Source of the DNA: Micavibrio aeruginosavorus ARL-13
Lineage (GTDB): Bacteria > Pseudomonadota > Alphaproteobacteria > Micavibrionales > Micavibrionaceae
Length of the DNA: 64,000 nucleotides
Assembly (NCBI RefSeq): GCF_000226315.1
Contig: NC_016026.1
Span: 806,001 to 870,000, forward strand
Direction of reading: 5' to 3'
A model generated the notes under the pieces. That model saw nothing but the letters and a program-made list of their open reading frames with translations. It did not search any database and was not told the origin of the DNA. This document shows positions 8,095 to 20,576 of this stretch, piece by piece. A program made the position numbers and the translations under genes. Positions within the stretch are counted from its first letter, which is position 1. Each line of letters starts with the position of its first letter.

Positions 8095-9024
8095 CTAATC
8101 CGCGGCCAGGTTGACAAGGTGCTGTTCCGCATAATTTGCGGAAAATGTAACCAGTTTGTCGATATCATCCTTTAACGCATTGTAATTCTTGTTTCTTTTG
8201 TTTTTGACCTCGTCCCAGTACAGGGCTTTGTTAATCTCAATCTGAATGGAGTGGCGGCCCCGGGCCGGGTCGGCATAGCGGCGGACCAGCTCCACACCCT
8301 TGTACGGGTTGTTCACACTGACTTTGTAGCCCAAACCTCTTAAGAAATCCCTTAGGGTGTGGGTGAAGGCAATATCGCAACTGGTCCCGTCGCGGTCGCC
8401 CAGAACGAAATCCGGTTGCGCCGGAAACACCGGCGGCACGGTCGGGGCGGCCGGAAATGGTCCGCGCGCCGGCAGTGTCATGGCCGCAGCCGAGGGCATG
8501 GAATGACAATTAATATGCCAAACCTGTCCATAGCGATAATGCGCGTCATCGATCAGATGTTTCAGGCACGCATGATAGGGGTGGTAATAATTGTGGATGC
8601 GATGCTGGATCGCGCGCACCGAAAGCTGTTTGTCATAGACGGGAACGCCCGGGCGCACCAATCGCCGGATCAATCCGATCCCGGCATAAGACCGCATGCT
8701 GGGGCGGAGCGGTCCCGGCCATTTTTCCGACAGCAGGTCGACATCAATGTCATCCTCCGCCCGGTTGGTGTCTATGTAGCACCGGGGGAACAGGGCGCAT
8801 AATAATGTGCCGCCCGCATCCGCGACGGTGTCGAACAAGTGATCGACATCGTTATCTTCCGCCCGCTGCAACATGTCGAAGTCACAGGCATATCCAAAAT
8901 CATCCGGGTAATCGCGTCCGCTGTGCGGTGAATCAAAAATCACCGGAACCTCACGCGTGCGGGGTTTTGTGACGTGGTACAGGCGGTCGCGGTGCAATGG
9001 GGGCGGCAATTGATTGATCATCAT
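8095..9024 (-). CDS. N-formylglutamate amidohydrolase-like protein (copy 2)
   Basis: A second member of the FGase family, about 309 residues from the start chosen. It shows VIFDSPHSGRDYP, RCYIDTNRAEDDID, WHINCHSMPS and FVLGDRDGTSCD, then NNPYKGVELVRRYADP and RHSIQIEINKALYW, in the same order as its neighbour. I prefer the ATG that overlaps the upstream stop codon as ATGA; an in-frame ATG 42 bases further upstream is the alternative. Thirty-two bases separate it from copy 1. Two adjacent, clearly diverged copies suggest different acyl or amino acid substrates rather than simple redundancy (inference). Confidence 0.86.
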   Translation of the reverse strand: MMINQLPPPLHRDRLYHVTKPRTREVPVIFDSPHSGRDYPDDFGYACDFDMLQRAEDNDVDHLFDTVADAGGTLLCALFPRCYIDTNRAEDDIDVDLLSEKWPGPLRPSMRSYAGIGLIRRLVRPGVPVYDKQLSVRAIQHRIHNYYHPYHACLKHLIDDAHYRYGQVWHINCHSMPSAAAMTLPARGPFPAAPTVPPVFPAQPDFVLGDRDGTSCDIAFTHTLRDFLRGLGYKVSVNNPYKGVELVRRYADPARGRHSIQIEINKALYWDEVKNKRNKNYNALKDDIDKLVTFSANYAEQHLVNLAAD

Positions 9025-9596
9025 TTTGGTGTGCGGCTGATACGTTGGCGGATGGAGTTCATCCAAAATGTGAGGCCGTTGCCCGGGCCATCACGGTGAA
9101 TGGCATGTGCGGATTTCACAACGCCAGCGGCGAAGGCCGCCTGCGCCGCGCGAAACCGTTCGCCAATTTCGGCAGGGGATTGGGCGCTGGGGTCGATGGC
9201 GCGGATATGGCCATCAAACGCCATCGCGGTTTCAAAAATGGTTGATCCGGCGGAGTCATAGGCGGCGGCAACATCGTTCTGTGCCATGCGGTCTTCCGCC
9301 GTGGCCCAGGGGATGGGCGAGCTGTGATTCATCTTCACGGCATCCCAATCCACGGTTCTGTCTGTGAGCGCCAGTTTCAGGGCCACCCATTGCAGGTCCA
9401 GCGGGGAGCCCAGCATCTCAACCCGGCAGGTGGCGACGGTTTGTTCGCCCTTCATAAATTCGACCGGGATCTGGATGGTTGAGCCTTTGCCAAGCGAGAC
9501 ATTCCTGTAAAAATTCCAGAATCCTTCGTCCACATTGGGGATCGTGTGACCCAACTGGCTGGCGGCAGTGCTAAATTTCTTGTTCAGAGTGGGCAT
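9021..9596 (-). CDS. Hypothetical protein in amidohydrolase operon
   Basis: 191 residues, soluble, no signal peptide, family not recognised. The C-terminal half is Ala-rich and helical (FRAAQAAFAAGVVKSAHAIH) and the middle contains DLQWVALKLALTDRTVDWDAVKM. It is the first gene of the minus-strand trio and shares a four-base ATGA overlap with the second amidohydrolase-like gene, so the two are almost certainly co-translated. A small helper protein for the enzymes is possible but unsupported. A palindromic repeat lies just upstream. Confidence 0.72.
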   Translation of the reverse strand: MPTLNKKFSTAASQLGHTIPNVDEGFWNFYRNVSLGKGSTIQIPVEFMKGEQTVATCRVEMLGSPLDLQWVALKLALTDRTVDWDAVKMNHSSPIPWATAEDRMAQNDVAAAYDSAGSTIFETAMAFDGHIRAIDPSAQSPAEIGERFRAAQAAFAAGVVKSAHAIHRDGPGNGLTFWMNSIRQRISRTPK

Positions 9597-9630
9597 TTTT
9601 TTATAGGCACTCGTGCTGTTTCCCCATTTT

Positions 9631-9700
9631 CGTCATACCGGCGAAGGCCGGTATCCATACAATCCATCCTATGGACCCCGGCCTTCGCCGGGGTGACGGG
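9631..9700. repeat. Composite palindromic intergenic repeat (GTCAT...GTGAC type)
   Basis: Two hairpins back to back: CGTCATACCGGCGAAGGCCG... and CCCCGGCCTTCGCCGGGGTG, bounded by CGTCAT and GTGACG. The same layout is found at five other intergenic sites in this window. It lies between the divergent amidohydrolase operon and serS. Confidence 0.75.
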
Positions 9701-9824
9701 TGGGGTGGTGGGGGTATTTTCGCGTATCCCATGCCCCCTTTACCATTCGGGGGCAAGTTATTATAAGTATTACAGATTTTATATTAAACCATGCCGCTTG
9801 CAAAAGCCTTAACCGGAGCCGGAT

Positions 9825-12025: not shown

Positions 12026-13085
12026 ATGGTTTTGCATTGTTGCCGGATTGTTGATGGTGTCGGGATGTGGTTCGGCACCGTACGATGTTCACACCTATAA
12101 ATTCGGCCAGCATGGCGGCGCGGGCAGTTCCGGCGCGCATGTCGTCGCTGCCGGGGACAGTGTCTATGCGCTGGCCGAACGTTATCGGTTGGATATGCGC
12201 GATATTATCACCGTCAATAATTTGAATGCCCCCTATACGTTGGAACCGGGACAGCATTTGCTGCTGCCGCCGCCGCGCGAATATAAGGTGCGCGCTGGGG
12301 ACAGTCTTTATACCGTGTCGCGTTTGTTCGGGGTCAGCGTGACCGATATTGCGCGGCTGAACAATCTGCGCACACCCTATACCGTTGTGGCGGGATCGAC
12401 ATTACGCATTCCCGTAACGGCGGTAGAGGAAACCGTGACGCGTCAGCATGTGGCCATGAAGGGCGCGGCCAGTACCGATGTGATTGAACGGGAAACATTG
12501 GCCCCGGTTAATCGGCCGTCACGCCCGGGGGCCGTAACGGCAGAAGTATTGCCTGCGCCATCGCCTGTTCCATCGTCTGGCCCATCGGCGGGAGCGTCGC
12601 CATCGTCGGCGTCTATCCCCGCGCCAGATGTTCGCCCGGCGAACCAGGCGTCACCAAAACTGGCCGCAAAAATTCCTGAAACGGTTCCGCCGCGCGCCTC
12701 GTCCAAATTCCTCCGCCCGGTGGAGGGGAATGTGATTTCGTCCTATGGCGCGAAGGCGGGCGGCCTGCATAATGATGGCATCAACATCAAGGCGGCAAAA
12801 GGGACACCCGTAAAAGCCGCCGAAAACGGCGTGGTTGTGTATGCCAGCAATGAGATGAAAGGCTATGGCAACATGGTCCTGATCCGCCACGCGGACCGGT
12901 GGATGACGGCGTATTCCCATATGGATTCCATCAGCATCAAACGCGGCGACACGGTCAAACGCGGGCAGGCCATTGGCACGGTGGGAATGACGGGGTCCGT
13001 GGATACCCCGCAACTGCATTTCGAAATTCGCCGCGGGGTTCAGGCACTGAACCCGGAAGCCTATCTGGATGGGCGGAAATCGTAA
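12012..13085 (+). CDS. LysM/M23 lipoprotein with degenerate active site (NlpD/DipM-like)
   Basis: Predicted lipoprotein of 357 residues involved in peptidoglycan remodelling at division. The signal peptide ends in the lipobox VSGC (Cys19). Two LysM repeats follow (about 43-86 and 90-134), then a Pro/Ala/Ser linker (about 165-230) and a C-terminal M23/LytM domain. Zinc ligands are largely missing: the HxGxD motif reads N254-D-G-I-N258, and the final HLH reads Q334-L-H336; only H303 and H336 remain. NlpD- and DipM-type factors with such sites activate amidases rather than cut peptidoglycan themselves. It overlaps pcm by 14 bases and the next gene by one base (TAATG), so the three are probably one operon. 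Confidence 0.9.
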   Translation: MTARKWFCIVAGLLMVSGCGSAPYDVHTYKFGQHGGAGSSGAHVVAAGDSVYALAERYRLDMRDIITVNNLNAPYTLEPGQHLLLPPPREYKVRAGDSLYTVSRLFGVSVTDIARLNNLRTPYTVVAGSTLRIPVTAVEETVTRQHVAMKGAASTDVIERETLAPVNRPSRPGAVTAEVLPAPSPVPSSGPSAGASPSSASIPAPDVRPANQASPKLAAKIPETVPPRASSKFLRPVEGNVISSYGAKAGGLHNDGINIKAAKGTPVKAAENGVVVYASNEMKGYGNMVLIRHADRWMTAYSHMDSISIKRGDTVKRGQAIGTVGMTGSVDTPQLHFEIRRGVQALNPEAYLDGRKS

Positions 13086-14140
13086 TGGGTGGTGTGATCG
13101 GCCTGATGGCGGCGGTCCAGCAAGTCGGATGGCTGGTTGCGGGTTTGTTTTTCTGGTTCATCGCGTGTGTGATGATCCTCAGCCATGTCCATGATCGTCG
13201 GACCAAAACCACATATACCGGGCAGATTGCCGCTTTGCGTGTGCGTGGTGACGCGGCGAAGGGCAAGGCCGTTTATTATCCGATTGTGTCCTATACCAAC
13301 GACGTTGGTGTGGTGGTTGAGGCAGAAACGCGCCACGGGTCATCGGGGTTGTCCGGAAAGTTGCCGGGGCGGGTTGTGCGCGTGATGCCGGATGTGCACG
13401 AACCGCGCGTGGCAACCATTCGCGATGGGTCCGGGATTGTCCTGACTCTGGTTTTGTGGGGTATGGGGGCCTTGCCGATTGCGATTGGTGTTTTGCAATA
13501 TCCTGTAACGCCCTACACAATTTTTATCTTCGTTATCTTTGGTGCGTGGGTTGCGTGGAGAATTGCCCGCATGATCCGTCCGCGTCATGAATGGCAAAGC
13601 CGCGAAGAATTTCGTAAACGCAAGGCCGCAGAACTGTTGGCTAAACGCGCACAATGTCCGCGGATCAATCGCGATGAGGCCTTGGCACAATTAAAAACCA
13701 TGGATGATCTGGCGCTCCGTTTTTTGCCGCTGAGCGTTTTGGTGGCTTTTGTTTTCATGGGCGTTGCCGGGTGGGTGGCGTATGACACAGGCACAATATT
13801 GCATAACCGCGCTTATGCCGAAGGGCGCGTTGTTGCCCTTGATCGGCCATCGGGGTCCGATGCTTATTATCCGGTGATTGAATATCGCACCCACGATGAT
13901 GAATGGGTGCGTTTTACCGACAAGGCGGGCAGCAATGCGCCCAGCGTATCGGTCGGGCAGGGCGTTGATGTCATTTACGATGCGCGCAACCCGGATCGTG
14001 CGATGATCGAGGCGGGCGTGTCGGCGGTCTGGATCGTTGTGCTGGCCTCTGGTTTGGTCGGGTTGGCGGTGCTGGTGGCGGCGATCCGAACCGTTTTGGG
14101 GGTTGCGGGGCACCGTCGTCGGGGATATGTATCGATCTAA
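13085..14140 (+). CDS. DUF3592-type membrane protein with two repeated domains
   Basis: 351 residues. Four hydrophobic helices appear in two pairs (about 7-33 and 117-160; 218-240 and 318-340). Each half carries a similar extracytoplasmic-looking segment: GQIAALRVRG then YYPIVSYTND, and GRVVALDRPSG then YYPVIEYRTHD. Both segments continue into a V.VMPDVHEPRVA or VDVIYDARNPDRAMI ending. This G.V..Y.P.V.Y pattern is the DUF3592 signature, so the protein looks like an internal duplication. Its ATG shares one base with the stop of the LytM gene. Function is unknown, though the coupling suggests a cell-envelope role. Confidence 0.8.
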   Translation: MGGVIGLMAAVQQVGWLVAGLFFWFIACVMILSHVHDRRTKTTYTGQIAALRVRGDAAKGKAVYYPIVSYTNDVGVVVEAETRHGSSGLSGKLPGRVVRVMPDVHEPRVATIRDGSGIVLTLVLWGMGALPIAIGVLQYPVTPYTIFIFVIFGAWVAWRIARMIRPRHEWQSREEFRKRKAAELLAKRAQCPRINRDEALAQLKTMDDLALRFLPLSVLVAFVFMGVAGWVAYDTGTILHNRAYAEGRVVALDRPSGSDAYYPVIEYRTHDDEWVRFTDKAGSNAPSVSVGQGVDVIYDARNPDRAMIEAGVSAVWIVVLASGLVGLAVLVAAIRTVLGVAGHRRRGYVSI

Positions 14141-14188: not shown

Positions 14189-14217
14189 TTGCAATATTTC
14201 ATAATGTTGCGCTACTG
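14189..14217 (+). promoter_or_regulatory. Predicted promoter of paralog A
   Basis: TTGCAA, 17-base spacer, CTACTG. About 40 bases around it (TTCTTGCAATATT.CATAAT... ) match the region in front of paralog B. Right behind it, CGCCCT-GAC-AGGGCG (14221-14235) can form a small hairpin near the expected transcript start. Confidence 0.55.
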
Positions 14218-14241: not shown

Positions 14242-15558
14242 ATGAAATTTTTGGGCATTAGTTTCGGGTTTAACAAGGGCAGCGGTGGGGCACAAACCAC
14301 GGCGGCTTTGCCCGCGCCTGCAGAATGTTCGGCATCTGGTGTTGCGGCATCGTTTCAACGCGCCGTCTATGGCGTGACATGCCGCACATTGTCGTACCCG
14401 GCGGTTGTTGCAGGGGATGCGGTTTATTATCGCGCGTTGGCCACCACGACGACATTGGATCAATGGTGCATTCAAAAAATTACCGAACGCGCGGTTCAGT
14501 TGGAATCGAATAAAGCCCCGGTGGCCACCCCCAACAGAAAAATTGATGTTGTAAAAGAGGGGTTGGGTTTTTTTGATGCGCTGACCTATCTGGCCCGTGT
14601 GGAACAGGCATCGAAGATTGATCCCATCGGCCCCACGCGCGAAGAACTGGGCATGGATCATTACGAGGCCTTTGGCCTTTTGCACGATATCATTCCGGAT
14701 GTGAACGGCATGCCTCAACCGACAATTGGTGGGCATCCTGCGGTGGCTGGGGTTTACGCGGATACGGCAACGGCGGCATTGTATGATGCGCGCGGGCAAT
14801 TGGAATTAAAATCCATGCTGGCCCCAAAGGCACAAATGGATGCGCGTGGGAATGTCCTGAACCTTGGTGAAAAATTGCGCAATTTTATGGTTCAGTCGCG
14901 CAAGGAAGATGATTTAAAACGTGCGGCGCAAATTATGACGTTGTGGGTTGATCTATGTGCGGAGATTTGGAACAGGGACGATCTGTGTATCTCTGATCAA
15001 GGCTATCCGTCTTATGACAGTGAACCGTACAATGATCTTGCTCAATCATCATTGAATTACCGTTACGGTGTTGACATTCAATGTTACCGTTTTGACAGCG
15101 CGTATGATTATCGTGCCAGCAGTGTGTTTTCCCGCTGTGAAAAAATCTTAAGCGGAATCACCACATTCAGCGCGGAAGAAAAAGCAACGGTTCATTCCTA
15201 TCTGCGGGAAGTGGCCTATATCGCTATGGTCCAAGACGCGGCCTATGTGTTGCGTGAGGCTAAAAATACGTCGGATGAAGCGGCCAAGGCATCAAAAACA
15301 ATTTCCAGTATCCAGGATTCCGCCGCGCGGTTGCAGAGCGAGGCCAATGGCAAAGCGTATTATAAGGACGCCGTTGCAGATGAATATCAACGTCGCTTTA
15401 TGGCTGATGTTGAAAGCTGGACCATGTTAAAGGCCATGCCGGATCACATCGTGTCCGCGGCCAGGGCCATGCAACGTATGGCCGGAGAGGCGGCGCAAAT
15501 GCGCCACCAGGTTCTGGTGGAGGCGAAAGCCGCCCAGAGCAAAAACAGGCTCGGTTAG
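14242..15558 (+). CDS. Hypothetical protein, paralog A of a three-gene family
   Basis: 438 residues, no signal peptide or membrane helix, family not recognised. Residues about 38-164 form a domain shared with the next two genes: YGVTCRTLSYP, YYRALATTTTLDQW, PVATPNRKIDVVKE, FFDALTYLARVE, DPIG, LGMDHYEAF and GMPQPTIGG. The C-terminal 270 residues are mostly helical and carry a possible coiled coil (SSIQDSAARLQSEANGKAYY). Its ATG sits in GGGCGAGATCC-ATG, matched at the start of paralog B. It has its own promoter, duplicated in front of B. I see no nuclease, ATPase or transferase motif. Confidence 0.75.
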   Translation: MKFLGISFGFNKGSGGAQTTAALPAPAECSASGVAASFQRAVYGVTCRTLSYPAVVAGDAVYYRALATTTTLDQWCIQKITERAVQLESNKAPVATPNRKIDVVKEGLGFFDALTYLARVEQASKIDPIGPTREELGMDHYEAFGLLHDIIPDVNGMPQPTIGGHPAVAGVYADTATAALYDARGQLELKSMLAPKAQMDARGNVLNLGEKLRNFMVQSRKEDDLKRAAQIMTLWVDLCAEIWNRDDLCISDQGYPSYDSEPYNDLAQSSLNYRYGVDIQCYRFDSAYDYRASSVFSRCEKILSGITTFSAEEKATVHSYLREVAYIAMVQDAAYVLREAKNTSDEAAKASKTISSIQDSAARLQSEANGKAYYKDAVADEYQRRFMADVESWTMLKAMPDHIVSAARAMQRMAGEAAQMRHQVLVEAKAAQSKNRLG

Positions 15559-15623
15559 GCATGGGGTGAATTTATCCCACTGATATTTAATGGTTTTTGT
15601 TGTTTTTCTTACCCATAATTTTC

Positions 15624-15652
15624 TTGCAATATTCCATAATATAACGCTATCC
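15624..15652 (+). promoter_or_regulatory. Predicted promoter of paralogs B and C
   Basis: TTGCAA, 17-base spacer, CTATCC, with flanking bases matching the promoter of paralog A. It is followed by a possible hairpin, CCCCATT-ctgaaat-AATGGGG. Duplication of the promoter together with the gene is the simplest reading. Confidence 0.57.
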
Positions 15653-15705
15653 TGCCCCATTCTGAAATAATGGGGGCAAGCCCCTATGCCGAAGGGCTGA
15701 GCGCG

Positions 15706-16911
15706 ATGAAATGGTTGTTGAAAGATAAGGGTGCAGCGGACCGTGATGAGCGATCATTGCGCGACCAGCTGTTGGATAATTTCCGCCGCGCCAAATATGG
15801 CACGACATGTCGCACCTTGGCATTCCCAACCCAGATGGATGGCGAAAGCGAATATTACCGCGCCACGGCCACCACGCCGTTTTTGGATCAATGGATGGTG
15901 CAACGTGTTGTTGACCGTGCGGTGTTGTTGGAAGAATCAAATTTGCCCGTGGCCACCGACAACATCAAGCCGATCATCGTCAAAGAAAAGATCAATTTCT
16001 TTGATGCGATTGAGTATCTGGCCCGGTTCGAAGTAACCAGCTTCAGCGATCCCGTGGGGCAGGACCGCGATGCACTGGGCGCGGAACATTATGAAACGTT
16101 TGCCATGCGGCACGAAATTTTGTTCGACGCATCCGGCATGCCCCAGCCGACCATCAATGGCCAGATCGTAACCGACAATGCCTATGCCAAGCAGATGTTG
16201 GAAAAATTCAATGAGGTTCAGAGCCAAAAACTGAGCCTTTCTGATCAAGGCAGTGTGTGGCTGTGCGAGCAATTTAAGCAAAAAAGCAAGCTGGACCCGC
16301 TGGTTGAAAATTACCTGCGTAATAACAAAATTATGCTGGATGGGAGCGCCCTCATTCAAATTGTAAAGCCCGTGACGGACTTGTTTGATCATATGTGGCG
16401 TAATAAATCGCCCCATGTCTGGACCGATCCGGAGTGCCGGGATAAGCCACTTCTGCGCCTGGCACAACGTTTTGAAGGTCGGGTTGAACGCGAATATATG
16501 GCAGATCGAACCAAGGCTTTGTTCAGTCTAGTGCGACGGGATGCAAAATCGCCAATCTTTTCTGGTGCCGCAAAAGATTTGATTGAAACATTTCTGGATG
16601 AACTTGAATCCATCGCCCTGACACAGGAAGCGGTCTATCTGACGCATACGACGGGATTGCGCGATAACGAAAAAAATAACTGGATTTTGAAGTCTATTCG
16701 TAATCGTTACCTGGAATTACAGGGGGGTGGCCTGACGGCGCGATTTAATCCGTATTCTGCTGTACGTAAAGAATTTGACGATATTGTCCGCAATGCCATT
16801 TTTTTAGACCATGTTCCGCCGCATATTACCAAAATTGTGCGCGGCCTTGAAAATGGGCGTGCAACGGCGATGGAGGTTATAAAAAGCATCATGAGAAAGA
16901 CTATCAATTGA
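15706..16911 (+). CDS. Hypothetical protein, paralog B of a three-gene family
   Basis: 401 residues from the ATG that matches the start of paralog A (MKWLLK versus MKFLGI); an ATG 36 bases upstream is also in frame. The shared N-terminal domain spans about 25-152: YGTTCRTLAFP, YYRATATTPFLDQW, PVATDNIKPIIVKE, FFDAIEYLARFE, DPVGQDRDALGAEHYETF and GMPQPTINGQ. The C-terminal half is helical but differs from A. No membrane helix, signal peptide or catalytic motif is evident. The stop overlaps the TTG start of paralog C by four bases, so B and C are probably co-translated. Confidence 0.75.
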   Translation: MKWLLKDKGAADRDERSLRDQLLDNFRRAKYGTTCRTLAFPTQMDGESEYYRATATTPFLDQWMVQRVVDRAVLLEESNLPVATDNIKPIIVKEKINFFDAIEYLARFEVTSFSDPVGQDRDALGAEHYETFAMRHEILFDASGMPQPTINGQIVTDNAYAKQMLEKFNEVQSQKLSLSDQGSVWLCEQFKQKSKLDPLVENYLRNNKIMLDGSALIQIVKPVTDLFDHMWRNKSPHVWTDPECRDKPLLRLAQRFEGRVEREYMADRTKALFSLVRRDAKSPIFSGAAKDLIETFLDELESIALTQEAVYLTHTTGLRDNEKNNWILKSIRNRYLELQGGGLTARFNPYSAVRKEFDDIVRNAIFLDHVPPHITKIVRGLENGRATAMEVIKSIMRKTIN

Positions 16912-18233
16912 AAACGGGTTTTTTGAAAATTTGGGGGTGGCCGTGGGCATCTGCTCCGCAGGAAGAGCGGGCATTATTGCCCGCGCCGGTGCAAGAGGAG
17001 TTGTCCGAATCCTTTTCAAAGGCTGCGTTCGGTCGTAAATTCCGGACCTGTGAATATACCAACGTCCATTTGCCCGAAGGCAATAGCCAGTATTTAAAAG
17101 TCGTTGCTCTGGCTGCCGATCAATGGAATGTGGTTAAGGTGTCCCAAATGGGGGATGATTACACCACCGTTTCTGTTTTGGAAAACGTTCCGTTTGGCAA
17201 GGCTGCGCAATATTTGCTGGAATATGAATCTACTGCGCTAGATATGAATTTGCTGCCCTGTGGTGCAGATAAAAACGATCTGGGGTTTGACCATGTCGAA
17301 AATTTCTGTCTGCGCGAGGGGTTCGTGCCGGATCGTAACGGGCGTTTGCATGAACCGGTTGCGGGTGAAATTGTCACATCCGGCAATTTTGATCCAAAAA
17401 ATGTGAAAAAATACGAAGATTTATACGCGCAAATTCAAAGCAAGAATTTGGTTCTGACGAATGTTTGGAATTCGCAATCCATAACCGATCTATTCGCCCA
17501 TTATAAAGACGGCCCGCAATGGAGCGACGTGCGTCAAGATATTACTCATATGCACCGTTTGAAAGAGATCTATTTCGCGGTGCGTTGTGCGGTTTTGATT
17601 GAACAATGTGTCCTGGATATTCAAAACGGATCAAAAAAATACAATGATGATCCGGTGAATAAGATCACAGGTCTTTTGGTGTTTGATGGATATTGGATCA
17701 ATGATGAAGATATTCGCAATATGGCCGCAGCCGTGGTGGAAGATCGTAACTATACCATCGCGGATCATATTATTAAACGATCGATAGATATCATCGGAAA
17801 TCCTGTCGACGAATTGGCCGATATTAAGGCCGAAGCCATTCGTTTCCTGCGAGATCTACGCATTTTTGAATGTGTGCGGGAAAGCAAAGATTTATTGTCA
17901 AACGGTGCCGTTTCCATGGGGGCGTATGAGAAAGAAAAAATTGATGAATGGATGTGTAGCGTGGTCACGATGGCAAAAAACAATGGCTATTCCGATGCGC
18001 AGGTCGACGATATTCGATCGGCTATGTGTAACGCCACACCTGTAAAAGAATTACCCCATGGGATCATAGACTTCATGAGTGGGCTTGAGAAAGCTTATCG
18101 TTCCGTTGCCATGGCGATTGACCAAAAAATTGGAAATGATCATGCGGTGGTTGGTGAATACAAGCGATTGCCACAATCATCTACCATCCACGTCACGCGC
18201 AAAAATGGCAGCAGTTCCGGGTGGGAATGGTAA
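16908..18233 (+). CDS. Hypothetical protein, paralog C of a three-gene family
   Basis: 441 residues beginning at a TTG inside the stop overlap with paralog B. It is the most diverged member: FSKAAFGRKFRTCEY, QYLKVVALAADQW, FGKAAQYLLEYES, DLGFDHVENFCLREGFVPDRNGR and HEPVAGE line up with the A/B domain over residues 36-155. The C-terminal 280 residues are helical and match neither A nor B by eye. Base composition is more AT-rich than in flanking housekeeping genes (about 40% GC in two 60-base samples), which hints at separate origin or relaxed constraint. Function unknown. Confidence 0.72.
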   Translation: MKTGFLKIWGWPWASAPQEERALLPAPVQEELSESFSKAAFGRKFRTCEYTNVHLPEGNSQYLKVVALAADQWNVVKVSQMGDDYTTVSVLENVPFGKAAQYLLEYESTALDMNLLPCGADKNDLGFDHVENFCLREGFVPDRNGRLHEPVAGEIVTSGNFDPKNVKKYEDLYAQIQSKNLVLTNVWNSQSITDLFAHYKDGPQWSDVRQDITHMHRLKEIYFAVRCAVLIEQCVLDIQNGSKKYNDDPVNKITGLLVFDGYWINDEDIRNMAAAVVEDRNYTIADHIIKRSIDIIGNPVDELADIKAEAIRFLRDLRIFECVRESKDLLSNGAVSMGAYEKEKIDEWMCSVVTMAKNNGYSDAQVDDIRSAMCNATPVKELPHGIIDFMSGLEKAYRSVAMAIDQKIGNDHAVVGEYKRLPQSSTIHVTRKNGSSSGWEW

Positions 18234-18305: not shown

Positions 18306-18944
18306 TTATGCCGGTTTGGGCACGCCTGGGCTTTTTTTCAGGGAGGCCAGGCTGGTCAGCGGTTTGGCGTTGTCCGGGTTGGCCAGCCATGTGGCGTGAA
18401 CCATATAGGCACCGTCTTTCATTACGACGCCTTCGGCATTATTGCCGCTGATCCGGTCGCGCAGGGATTGAACGGCGGCTTCGCCCGTGGCTTTCAATTC
18501 ACCCAGTTGCGGTTTGACCTTGGAAAACGTATTGGCCAGCGTGGCGGCCATCTGAGCCTTGCCAATCAATCCACCTTTAACGGCACCAAGGAAGCTCATC
18601 GCCAGAGCCGGGGCCTCGTCTTTCAGCGTTTTGCCAACGCTCTTCAGATTTTCGACGGCCGCGTTCTTATTAAAGGCGAGGGCGGCGACGCCATCCTTTT
18701 TCAAAGCCGAGAGCATTTCAACCAGAGACACGGAGTCTTTTGCAGGTGTCCATTCCGGTTGGTTCAGCATACGGTACAGGCACAAAGACTGATCCAATTT
18801 GCGGATTTTGGTCTGGTCCAGATTGGTGGAGGCGAGCAGGGCGCTATACACCTTGCGCAGATCATTCAGGGAGCCCGCCACATGGTAATTCTGCCCCCCT
18901 TCACTTGCGCCGACAGCCAGAACATGGGTTGGTTTCGTGGTCAT
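18306..18944 (-). CDS. Hypothetical Ala-rich helical protein
   Basis: 212 residues from an ATG preceded by GGAGAACACG, a good ribosome-binding site; the longer frame upstream is not needed. No membrane helix or signal peptide is clear. The middle is Ala/Lys-rich and helical (NAAVENLKSVGKTLKDEAPAL, then AVKGGLIGKAQMAATLANTF). The N-terminal third, with ASEGGQNYHVAGSLNDLRKVY, looks more globular. I do not recognise a family. It is transcribed divergently from the long helical protein that follows, and the two may share a regulatory region of about 180 bases. Confidence 0.7.
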   Translation of the reverse strand: MTTKPTHVLAVGASEGGQNYHVAGSLNDLRKVYSALLASTNLDQTKIRKLDQSLCLYRMLNQPEWTPAKDSVSLVEMLSALKKDGVAALAFNKNAAVENLKSVGKTLKDEAPALAMSFLGAVKGGLIGKAQMAATLANTFSKVKPQLGELKATGEAAVQSLRDRISGNNAEGVVMKDGAYMVHATWLANPDNAKPLTSLASLKKSPGVPKPA

Positions 18945-19044
18945 CGTGTTCTCCAAAAATTCGTTTAAATTCAATGTGTTAATATCCTGTAGCCTGAGTG
19001 TAGCCAAAAGACGGAAAAAAAGAAAGGAATTTTTCATAAAAAGC

Positions 19045-19124: not shown

Positions 19125-20576
19125 ATGGCACCGAACAAAACGACAGATATTCAAGTTGAAGTTCTGCAGGGTGAAGACGGAACGCGTTTTTATAAAGACA
19201 TTCCAGATTATCGCACAGCCGATGAAGAAACACGCGCCCTGATGGATGCCATGATTGATGGTGTCGATTGGCGCGATTTGAACACCATTATTGGCTTCGG
19301 TAAGGAAGCCAAAGACGGCGTTCTGCAAGTTTCACGTAAAATCAATGAACGTGTAATGGCCGACAACAGCTTTATCGCCGAAATGCGCGAATGTGCCGAT
19401 GCTGTTTCCGGATTGGACATGGGGGCTTTGACTCAGCGTTTGGACGATTTGGCCAAAGGTGGTTTTGATATCGTAAAAAATAACAAAGCCGAAGTTGGAA
19501 CAGGCTTGGCGCTGGCCATGTTCGTCAATCCGATTGTTGGTCTGCTGGCCGGGTTGGGCATGAAAGGTGCGCGCGTTGGAAAAGAGAAATACGATCAAGT
19601 GAAGGGCAAGGTCCGCGGTGAAATGGACCATGCAAAAGAAGCCGAAGCTGCCCGCGATGATTTGCGTAAGGCCATTTTGACCACGCGCGCATTGGTGGAA
19701 AAACTGGAAACCGCGAAAGAAAAAATCCCGAGCTACATTAACGAAGTGAATGCCATGGGCGGTGCGCGAACCAAGGCTTATGGTGCACTGACGCTGGCTA
19801 TTGGTGCGGGGCAAGAATTGCAACGTCGCTTCTATGAAGAGATTTTGCCTGCGGAACAAGAAAATGGCGCTATTAGCCTTGAAGAACTGCAACAATTGCA
19901 GATGGCGGGTGATGTTATGGCCCGTACCGTCGAGGGCTTGCTGGGGTCGCGCGCAAACAGCTTGCAAAACATTGTGACGTTGTCAGAATCCTTGAAAATG
20001 TACACCCAGATGTACGTGAAGATTGAAGAGCATCTGACGTCGTCAGTGGGTGAGTGGGAGGGTCAAATTGCCCACGGTAATCTGATGGTGGATCGTATCG
20101 AGTTGCAGGCTGTCATTACTGCGGCAGATAAGAAGAGCGCAGACCTGGCAGAAAAGAGTGAGAAACTGCACGAAACATCTCGTGTCATGCACCAGAAGAG
20201 CATGGAGCAGGGGACATTCCACTTGGCACAGATTGCCGCTTCAACGGAACGTCTGGCGCAGCGTCTGTCTTCGGAAATGCTGACGATTACAGACCAAAGC
20301 CGCCGTCATGTTGCCGCACAAGAACGTCTTGAGCAGGCAACGCAGACCTTGGCAGAAACCTTCCAGTCCAATGCGCAAAAACGCGCCCAGCTGTTGGTGG
20401 GCTCGGCAACCAGTGACAAATTGTCCCTGCGGTTTGAGCAGAAAGCGGCCGGAAATGACAACGCACCCGACGTCGCAGAAGAGGCTCAGGTGATTGAGCA
20501 AACTGCAACCGCAGGCAAGGCTGAAAGAAAACCCCGTGCCCCGCGCACCGCAAAACCGGCCGCTAAACCGGAATAA
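19125..20576 (+). CDS. Long helical protein, possibly TelA-like (uncertain)
   Basis: 483 residues, almost entirely predicted helix. A hydrophobic Gly-rich stretch (GTGLALAMFVNPIVGLLAGLGMKG, about 125-148) could be a membrane hairpin or amphipathic segment. Long charged helices follow (EAEAARDDLRKAILTTRALV, QAVITAADKKSADLAEKSEK) and a Lys/Pro/Ala-rich tail ends the protein. The order of helices and the block SLQNIVTLSESLKMYTQMYV faintly recall the toxic-anion-resistance TelA family, but that family's IPLWK-type motif is not visible. The assignment is therefore weak. It stands alone on its transcript between the paralog block and yajC. Confidence 0.7.
   Translation: MAPNKTTDIQVEVLQGEDGTRFYKDIPDYRTADEETRALMDAMIDGVDWRDLNTIIGFGKEAKDGVLQVSRKINERVMADNSFIAEMRECADAVSGLDMGALTQRLDDLAKGGFDIVKNNKAEVGTGLALAMFVNPIVGLLAGLGMKGARVGKEKYDQVKGKVRGEMDHAKEAEAARDDLRKAILTTRALVEKLETAKEKIPSYINEVNAMGGARTKAYGALTLAIGAGQELQRRFYEEILPAEQENGAISLEELQQLQMAGDVMARTVEGLLGSRANSLQNIVTLSESLKMYTQMYVKIEEHLTSSVGEWEGQIAHGNLMVDRIELQAVITAADKKSADLAEKSEKLHETSRVMHQKSMEQGTFHLAQIAASTERLAQRLSSEMLTITDQSRRHVAAQERLEQATQTLAETFQSNAQKRAQLLVGSATSDKLSLRFEQKAAGNDNAPDVAEEAQVIEQTATAGKAERKPRAPRTAKPAAKPE

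Follow-up and report, generated by a model that had tools for sequence, protein, structure and literature searches.

What part do three tandem genes of no recognised family play in the genome of an obligate bacterial predator? The question is raised by genes A, B and C, which lie in a stretch of 64,000 nucleotides of Micavibrio aeruginosavorus ARL-13 (called the window here, at its full length), corresponding to G000:C1:806001-870000 of a 2,481,983-base, single-contig genome; G000 denotes this genome, G002 a sister strain and G001 a further comparison genome. Judged by their sequences, the three genes belong to a real, unnamed family which has been found so far in the order of Micavibrio only, and whose gene-level link to TelA-like genes, as seen in adjacency, co-occurrence and co-divergence, is well supported. 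On balance we lean towards A, B and C, as members of this order-restricted family, partnering a TelA-type protein or serving as its adaptors.

The list of open reading frames (ORFs) contains three tandem forward-strand ORFs where the original prediction had placed them: A (438 residues, 14242..15558), B (413 residues, 15670..16911) and C (441 residues, 16908..18233, with a TTG start which overlaps the stop of B). The N-terminal domain which they had been said to share (approximately 14335-14775, 15751-16203 and 16989-17408) is common to all three and chance is ruled out, with z of 72 for A-B, 29 for B-C and 24 for A-C against 500 shuffles each. The blocks listed for it were all found in A and B, while C retains DQW, LG.DH and PDRNG; the remark that C is AT-rich was also borne out (45.6% guanine plus cytosine vs 54.1% in the window). 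By BLASTP, A and B are 31% identical over 397 columns (E 1e-50), B and C 26% over 191 (E 1e-15) and A and C 27% over 196 (E 7e-15). What did not stand was the picture of one module joined to different C-terminal partners, which was rejected on shuffle and profile tests. The C-terminal halves of A and B align with a score of 63 against a maximum of 52 among 500 shuffles (z 7.0), and a C-terminal profile of other family members, built without the window rows and without the rows of the first G002 locus, matches C at 1.9e-10 and A at 7e-5; these two results favour, from sequence comparison, one strongly diverged region in all three. The caveat is that B alone is unmatched by this profile (0.35, with a best reversed control of 0.68), and the direct C-terminal comparisons B-C (40) and A-C (41) fall inside the shuffle range (maxima 64 and 65). 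Extra domains do exist elsewhere in the family, as two relatives carry ankyrin repeats.

The three proteins still have no recognised family: no convincing match was found for A, B or C in Pfam, NCBIfam, PHROGs or PADLOC, the best library score being that of C to the phage head maturation protease phrog_595 (9e-4), which is absent in A and B, and a sequence search of the PDB gave a best E of only 0.04. With a 20-row profile the family is present in 28 of 142 genomes of the order of Micavibrio, from 15 of 54 genera, and tandem genes with the same domain, which the original prediction had named as support, occur in other genomes of the order. The ARL-13 genome itself holds six copies and genome G061 holds 12 matches. 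Outside the order, a 36-row profile matched the ARL-13 genome alone among the 385 genomes sampled from the class and the 398 from the phylum, samples which overlap and include a few genomes of the order, so that rare members may exist elsewhere. No relative of B was found among phages or plasmids, nor any in viral contigs by profile patterns, and a phage or mobile origin of the family was rejected on this basis.

A total of 69 family ORFs were gathered at E<1e-5, and the tree was built from 67 rows, leaving out a contig-edge fragment and a diverged ORF of the second-gene type. In this tree C groups with the copy at 369.9 kb of its own genome (100/100), and A and B form a clade with a G001 gene and the own-genome copy at 368.5 kb (100/100); therefore two loci of this genome each carry a gene of A/B type with one of C type behind it. 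The two relatives with ankyrin repeats, which come from separate genome families (G084 of f1 and G126 of f3), also pair at 100/100. Support is weak at many of the deep forks, and long branches come together. In G061, tandem arrays of five family genes in a row (L058 1-6307, where the first gene is truncated at the contig end) and of two (L055 1134-3608) were seen, none of which adjoins a TelA-like gene.

The interval given in the original prediction was right for the trio; it missed a specific functional link, namely a gene just downstream (19125..20576, forward strand) whose 483-residue product matches Pfam TelA (PF05816) at E 1.4e-6 and which, because its score of 28.1 bits stays below the cut-off of 30, is called TelA-like here. 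A TelA-like protein was the commonest neighbour of family loci in a first pass (11 loci), the next neighbour clusters occurring at 8 loci each (c2 and c3, the latter being family-like). According to a TelA-like profile, such genes are present in 27 of the 142 genomes of the order, 26 of which also hold the family (Fisher p 5e-25 by genome and 1.3e-9 by genus), and when ten genomes whose TelA hits were weak or broken were dropped by hand the counts were 17/11/0/114 by genome (p 5e-15) and 9/6/0/39 by genus (p 9e-7); all of these p-values are made too small by the relatedness of the genomes. Among 37 TelA-like ORFs examined, 21 were strong (E<1e-45) and 16 weaker, the latter including several fragments. 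A family gene on the same strand stands by 20 of the 21 strong ORFs and within 110 bp of 17 of them, in loci which were mostly fetched for holding the family and which also supplied the TelA profile; those farther off are in the window and G002 (0.8-0.9 kb) and in G001 (5.2 kb), and the sole strong ORF with no family gene sits at a contig end. At L133, L134 and L142 family genes were found beside TelA beyond the original profile matches in the 142 genomes.

The order of the genes around TelA is not constant. In Micavibrio it is A-B-C followed by TelA; at 8 loci of genome family f3 TelA is followed by a family gene and a second family-like gene; a family gene followed by TelA is found at L074, at the ankyrin-bearing L083 and L086, and at L142, where the family protein is long; and the arrangement X-TelA-family gene-Y is found at L092, L145 and, by eye, L133. 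The four-gene form of the last extends over L092 2993-8395 and L145 43-5434, with a hydrophobic stretch near the start of Y, and X and Y of L092 have no convincing Pfam match. Four genomes (G126, G127, G129 and G138) carry two different cassette arrangements each, and hence the pairing does not reflect species history only. The identity matrices of TelA and family proteins correlate with r 0.956 over 19 pairs, the best of 5000 permutations reaching 0.55, in a comparison which left out L142, L012 and L090 and represented the Micavibrio cassettes by C.

A number of observations weigh against a functional partnership with TelA. The family occurs without TelA in G028 and G034, and TelA without the family in G090 only. 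Only 2 of the 16 weaker TelA-like ORFs have a family gene nearby, and at loci fetched for TelA a family gene adjoins in just 5 of 20. In the window itself 891 bp separate C from the TelA-like gene, with an antisense gene in between, and three of the six family genes of this genome lie at two other loci with no TelA. The one TelA-like gene of G061 (3.7e-40) adjoins none of its 12 family matches; longer TelA-like proteins, in genome family f5 and in G061, are encoded away from family genes, that of L134 lying at 281 bp from one. The assignment to TelA is itself uneven: the Pfam cut-off is passed by three of eight TelA-like proteins (L079 at 50.7, L018 at 46.8 and L137 at 30.5), it is missed by the window protein, L133 and L134, and L135 and L139 show no Pfam TelA match at E 0.1. 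To these must be added the inflation of the co-occurrence test by relatedness, and the restriction to genomes holding both genes of the XpaC and TerD counts given below.

What such a partnership might do can be suggested from TelA elsewhere. TelA of Ter systems is described as a component of sub-membrane structures which are proposed to prevent the entry of phage or xenobiotics (PMC7824862); a Listeria lmo1967 mutant is 4-fold more susceptible to nisin and 2-fold more to tellurite (PMC12791056, citing Collins 2010); an XpaC-like protein and telA1 are among the genes raised in a cell-envelope-stress response (PMC3139573); the Lactococcus tel locus is linked to tellurite sensitivity (PMC13109727); and the precise function of TelA is called uncharacterised (PMC12791056, PMC13109727). 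Gram-positive XpaC-TelA operons resemble the present loci in that TelA is encoded with one partner gene there and a TelA-like gene neighbours the family here, but here the partner family looks unrelated, with proteins of approximately 400-500 residues, and XpaC (PF10112) was found in none of 22 genomes holding both the family and a TelA-like gene (22 of 26 such genomes, the only kind covered), the Lactococcus lactis control being positive. TerD was found in all 22, so that TelA-like and TerD genes share genomes as would members of a Ter system (TerD, TelA, TerC, TerF). However, seven TerD loci read over 18-20 kb contain no TelA or family gene, the search covered TerD and not TerC or TerF, and the cited passage of PMC7824862 does not list the A/B/C family as a Ter component. 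Two side observations concern TerD: the ARL-13 genome has two TerD-type genes side by side (L182 8412-9934), the first below the Pfam cut-off, and G061 has a TerD-sodium/calcium exchanger-TerD-like cluster (L183 9319-11973).

The roles of TelA elsewhere, the absence of XpaC and the presence of TerD together make it the best reading that the family proteins are partners, in the cytosol, of a TelA-type stress module associated with the membrane, with the function borrowed by analogy. By hydropathy A, B and C lack a long hydrophobic stretch (best 19-residue means of 0.83, 1.15 and 1.33; no signal-peptide program was run), and the TelA-like protein of the window has a single one near residues 128-146 (best 19-residue mean of 1.98). 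The family proteins would thus be cytosolic, with TelA assembling at the inner face of the cytoplasmic membrane and the family protein binding it through either the N-terminal alpha/beta domain or the helical C-terminal region. Several diverged copies could serve as alternative partners within one cell for different envelope insults, which for a predator might come from the weapons of prey, from compounds acting on membranes or from phage. The presence of TerD alongside would agree with a Ter-type stress system, where, purely by analogy, the family would occupy the place of Gram-positive XpaC. Such an arrangement is not a categorically new system; the family is probably a new companion of a protein type already known. 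Micavibrio is unmentioned in the literature on TelA, toxic anions or tellurite resistance among the matches listed from openly licensed papers, and the ARL-13 paper contains no occurrence of 'tellur' or 'paralog'.

A different possibility, which we consider unlikely, is that TelA and its family partner form a conflict module which protects against phage or other invaders, the family diversifying in an arms race. The fast divergence of TelA, B and C between the sister strains would fit such a module. Whilst SerS, Pcm, YajC, SecD and SecF of G000 and G002 are 98-99% identical (synonymous divergence, dS, of 0.35-0.51), identity is 87% for A, 72% for B, 77% for C, 83% for the antisense gene and 51% for TelA, the TelA of G000 being equally distant from G002 and G001 (51% each), and dS reaches 1.39 in B and 2.45 in TelA. 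Such high values point to the exchange of old alleles, or to saturation. A patchy distribution, the many copies in G061 and the action against phage proposed for the Ter system (PMC7824862) are also in keeping with conflict. However, non-synonymous divergence (dN) is below dS, and there are no relatives in phages, plasmids or viral contigs; other neighbours vary too, with NlpD at 92%, the DUF3592 gene at 81% and a 191-residue ORF at 9021 at 83%. No PADLOC score was obtained at E up to 1 for A, B, C, the antisense gene or two of four other family-type proteins, and that of L083 falls on its ankyrin repeats. In the 60 proteins flanking 19 TelA-family cassettes PADLOC models occur singly, apart from one helicase model in three, and the flanking Pfam families are mostly metabolic or household (best 25 of 43). 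A defence island was accordingly rejected, the models found being the Brex helicase (3) and PDC-M72A (1.7e-21), mad2 (1.7e-13) and CARF (2.7e-6), one each.

A little less probable still is a WGR-like N-terminal domain that binds nucleic acids, by which the proteins would act on DNA or RNA under stress, either in regulation or in repair. The domain of B (residues 28-178) was predicted with a predicted local distance difference test (pLDDT) of 78.7 and a predicted template modelling score (pTM) of 0.74, five models spanning mean pLDDT of 54-79, and the whole of B with pLDDT 70 and pTM 0.44. The model has a helix and strands first, a second helix at the FFDA block, and after it short helices and strands; the remainder is helical. 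In a second structure search, ranks 1-9 for the domain are occupied entirely by WGR domains, those of PARP1, PARP2 or PARP3 (Z 4.2-4.8, the next at Z 3.4), over 82-93 residues at root-mean-square deviations of 3.8-5.2, where a Z under 8 may mean a common arrangement only; with the whole model a PARP1 WGR domain is row 50 (Z 5.1), and the helical half gives middling matches, at best to a designed bundle (Z 8.4) and a bacterial dynamin (Z 8.2), a range for which the tool cautions about helical models. The predicted domain may resemble WGR (PF05406) in being strand-rich and then helical, but sequence support is missing and Z is weak. Foldseek at E 0.001 gave no hit for whole B in the PDB, nor for the domain in the PDB or a viral library. 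With hhalign, five bacterial WGR sequences (from five of six loci, L175 being left out and L171 represented by its longest stop-free piece) scored 10.2, whereas the top decoy among 29 families reached 16.0, and Pfam found no WGR match in 11 family proteins scanned. The likeness may be kept as a weak lead.

We think it improbable, to a slightly greater degree, that the family is a set of paralogs whose linkage to TelA is incidental or inherited and involves no shared function. Several family loci without TelA nearby, the relatedness of the genomes and the non-adjacent longer TelA-like type of genome family f5 would be expected on such a view. However, there are 17 near-contiguous, like-stranded pairs in at least four arrangements, with the family on either side of TelA; co-occurrence spans four families of the Genome Taxonomy Database (GTDB); and two cassettes within one genome each keep their own match. 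Least probable of all is a role of the family proteins as effectors of predation, sent into prey while TelA protects the producer, for although the predatory habit is obligate, paralogs have expanded and ankyrin-bearing forms exist, hydropathy (no signal program was run) finds no leader-like hydrophobic stretch in A, B or C, and the TelA pairing is conserved in many genomes.

The trio is flanked by what we take, from the translations, to be serS, pcm and nlpD on one side and yajC-secD-secF on the other. Directly upstream of A is a membrane-type gene with a Pfam DUF3592 domain (12899-14140). The ORF holding A opens at TTG 14161, and for B ATG 15706 is a likelier start than 15670, since identity with the G002 ortholog begins at MKW. 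The antisense gene between C and the TelA-like gene (18306..19037, reverse strand), whose likelier start is at MTTKPTH, approximately 18944, has no family in a Pfam scan and keeps its position in G002 (83% identity) and G001 (35%), where its relatives adjoin TelA. Translations at window 9546-9812 (RRRPVSIQ...TPAFAGVT) and L182 12032-12130 (PRKRESI...WIPAFAGM) suggest a dispersed palindromic repeat.

A 26-base promoter-like element, TTGACATATTCCATAAT, precedes A (14189..14214, forward, ending 28 bases before ATG 14242), B (15624..15649, forward) and the copy at 1147 kb, and all three orthologs in G002. It has three sites in the ARL-13 genome at up to 2 mismatches and none in the control, a uniqueness which is partly by construction as the pattern was written from those three sites; only three of the six family genes have it, and a fourth site at 3 mismatches is not beside a family gene. 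A family-specific promoter was rejected, as a perfect match precedes an unrelated 215-residue ORF in G035 (L165 2170-2923, reverse). With 3 mismatches, TTGACATATTCCATAAT was also seen before an ankyrin-repeat gene in G129 (L166 2235-3483, reverse). In AT-rich genomes the background of the pattern is similar to the control. The element may represent a kind of promoter used more widely in the order.

Returning to the family as partners of TelA, a bolder form of the proposal, which is doubtful though a shade less so than the alternatives above, makes TelA a hub with lineage-specific, hypervariable partners, each having a WGR-like sensor and a fast-evolving helical arm, tuned to the attackers of the envelope. 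If this were true, the hub and its partners would in effect constitute an innate recognition repertoire in a predatory lineage. In this obligate predator, most of the highly expressed attack-phase genes are hypothetical (PMC3189940). The partner family would offer a biochemical handle on TelA-type proteins, which are tied to envelope stress and tellurite tolerance, and it draws attention to a set of predator genes that is changing fast.

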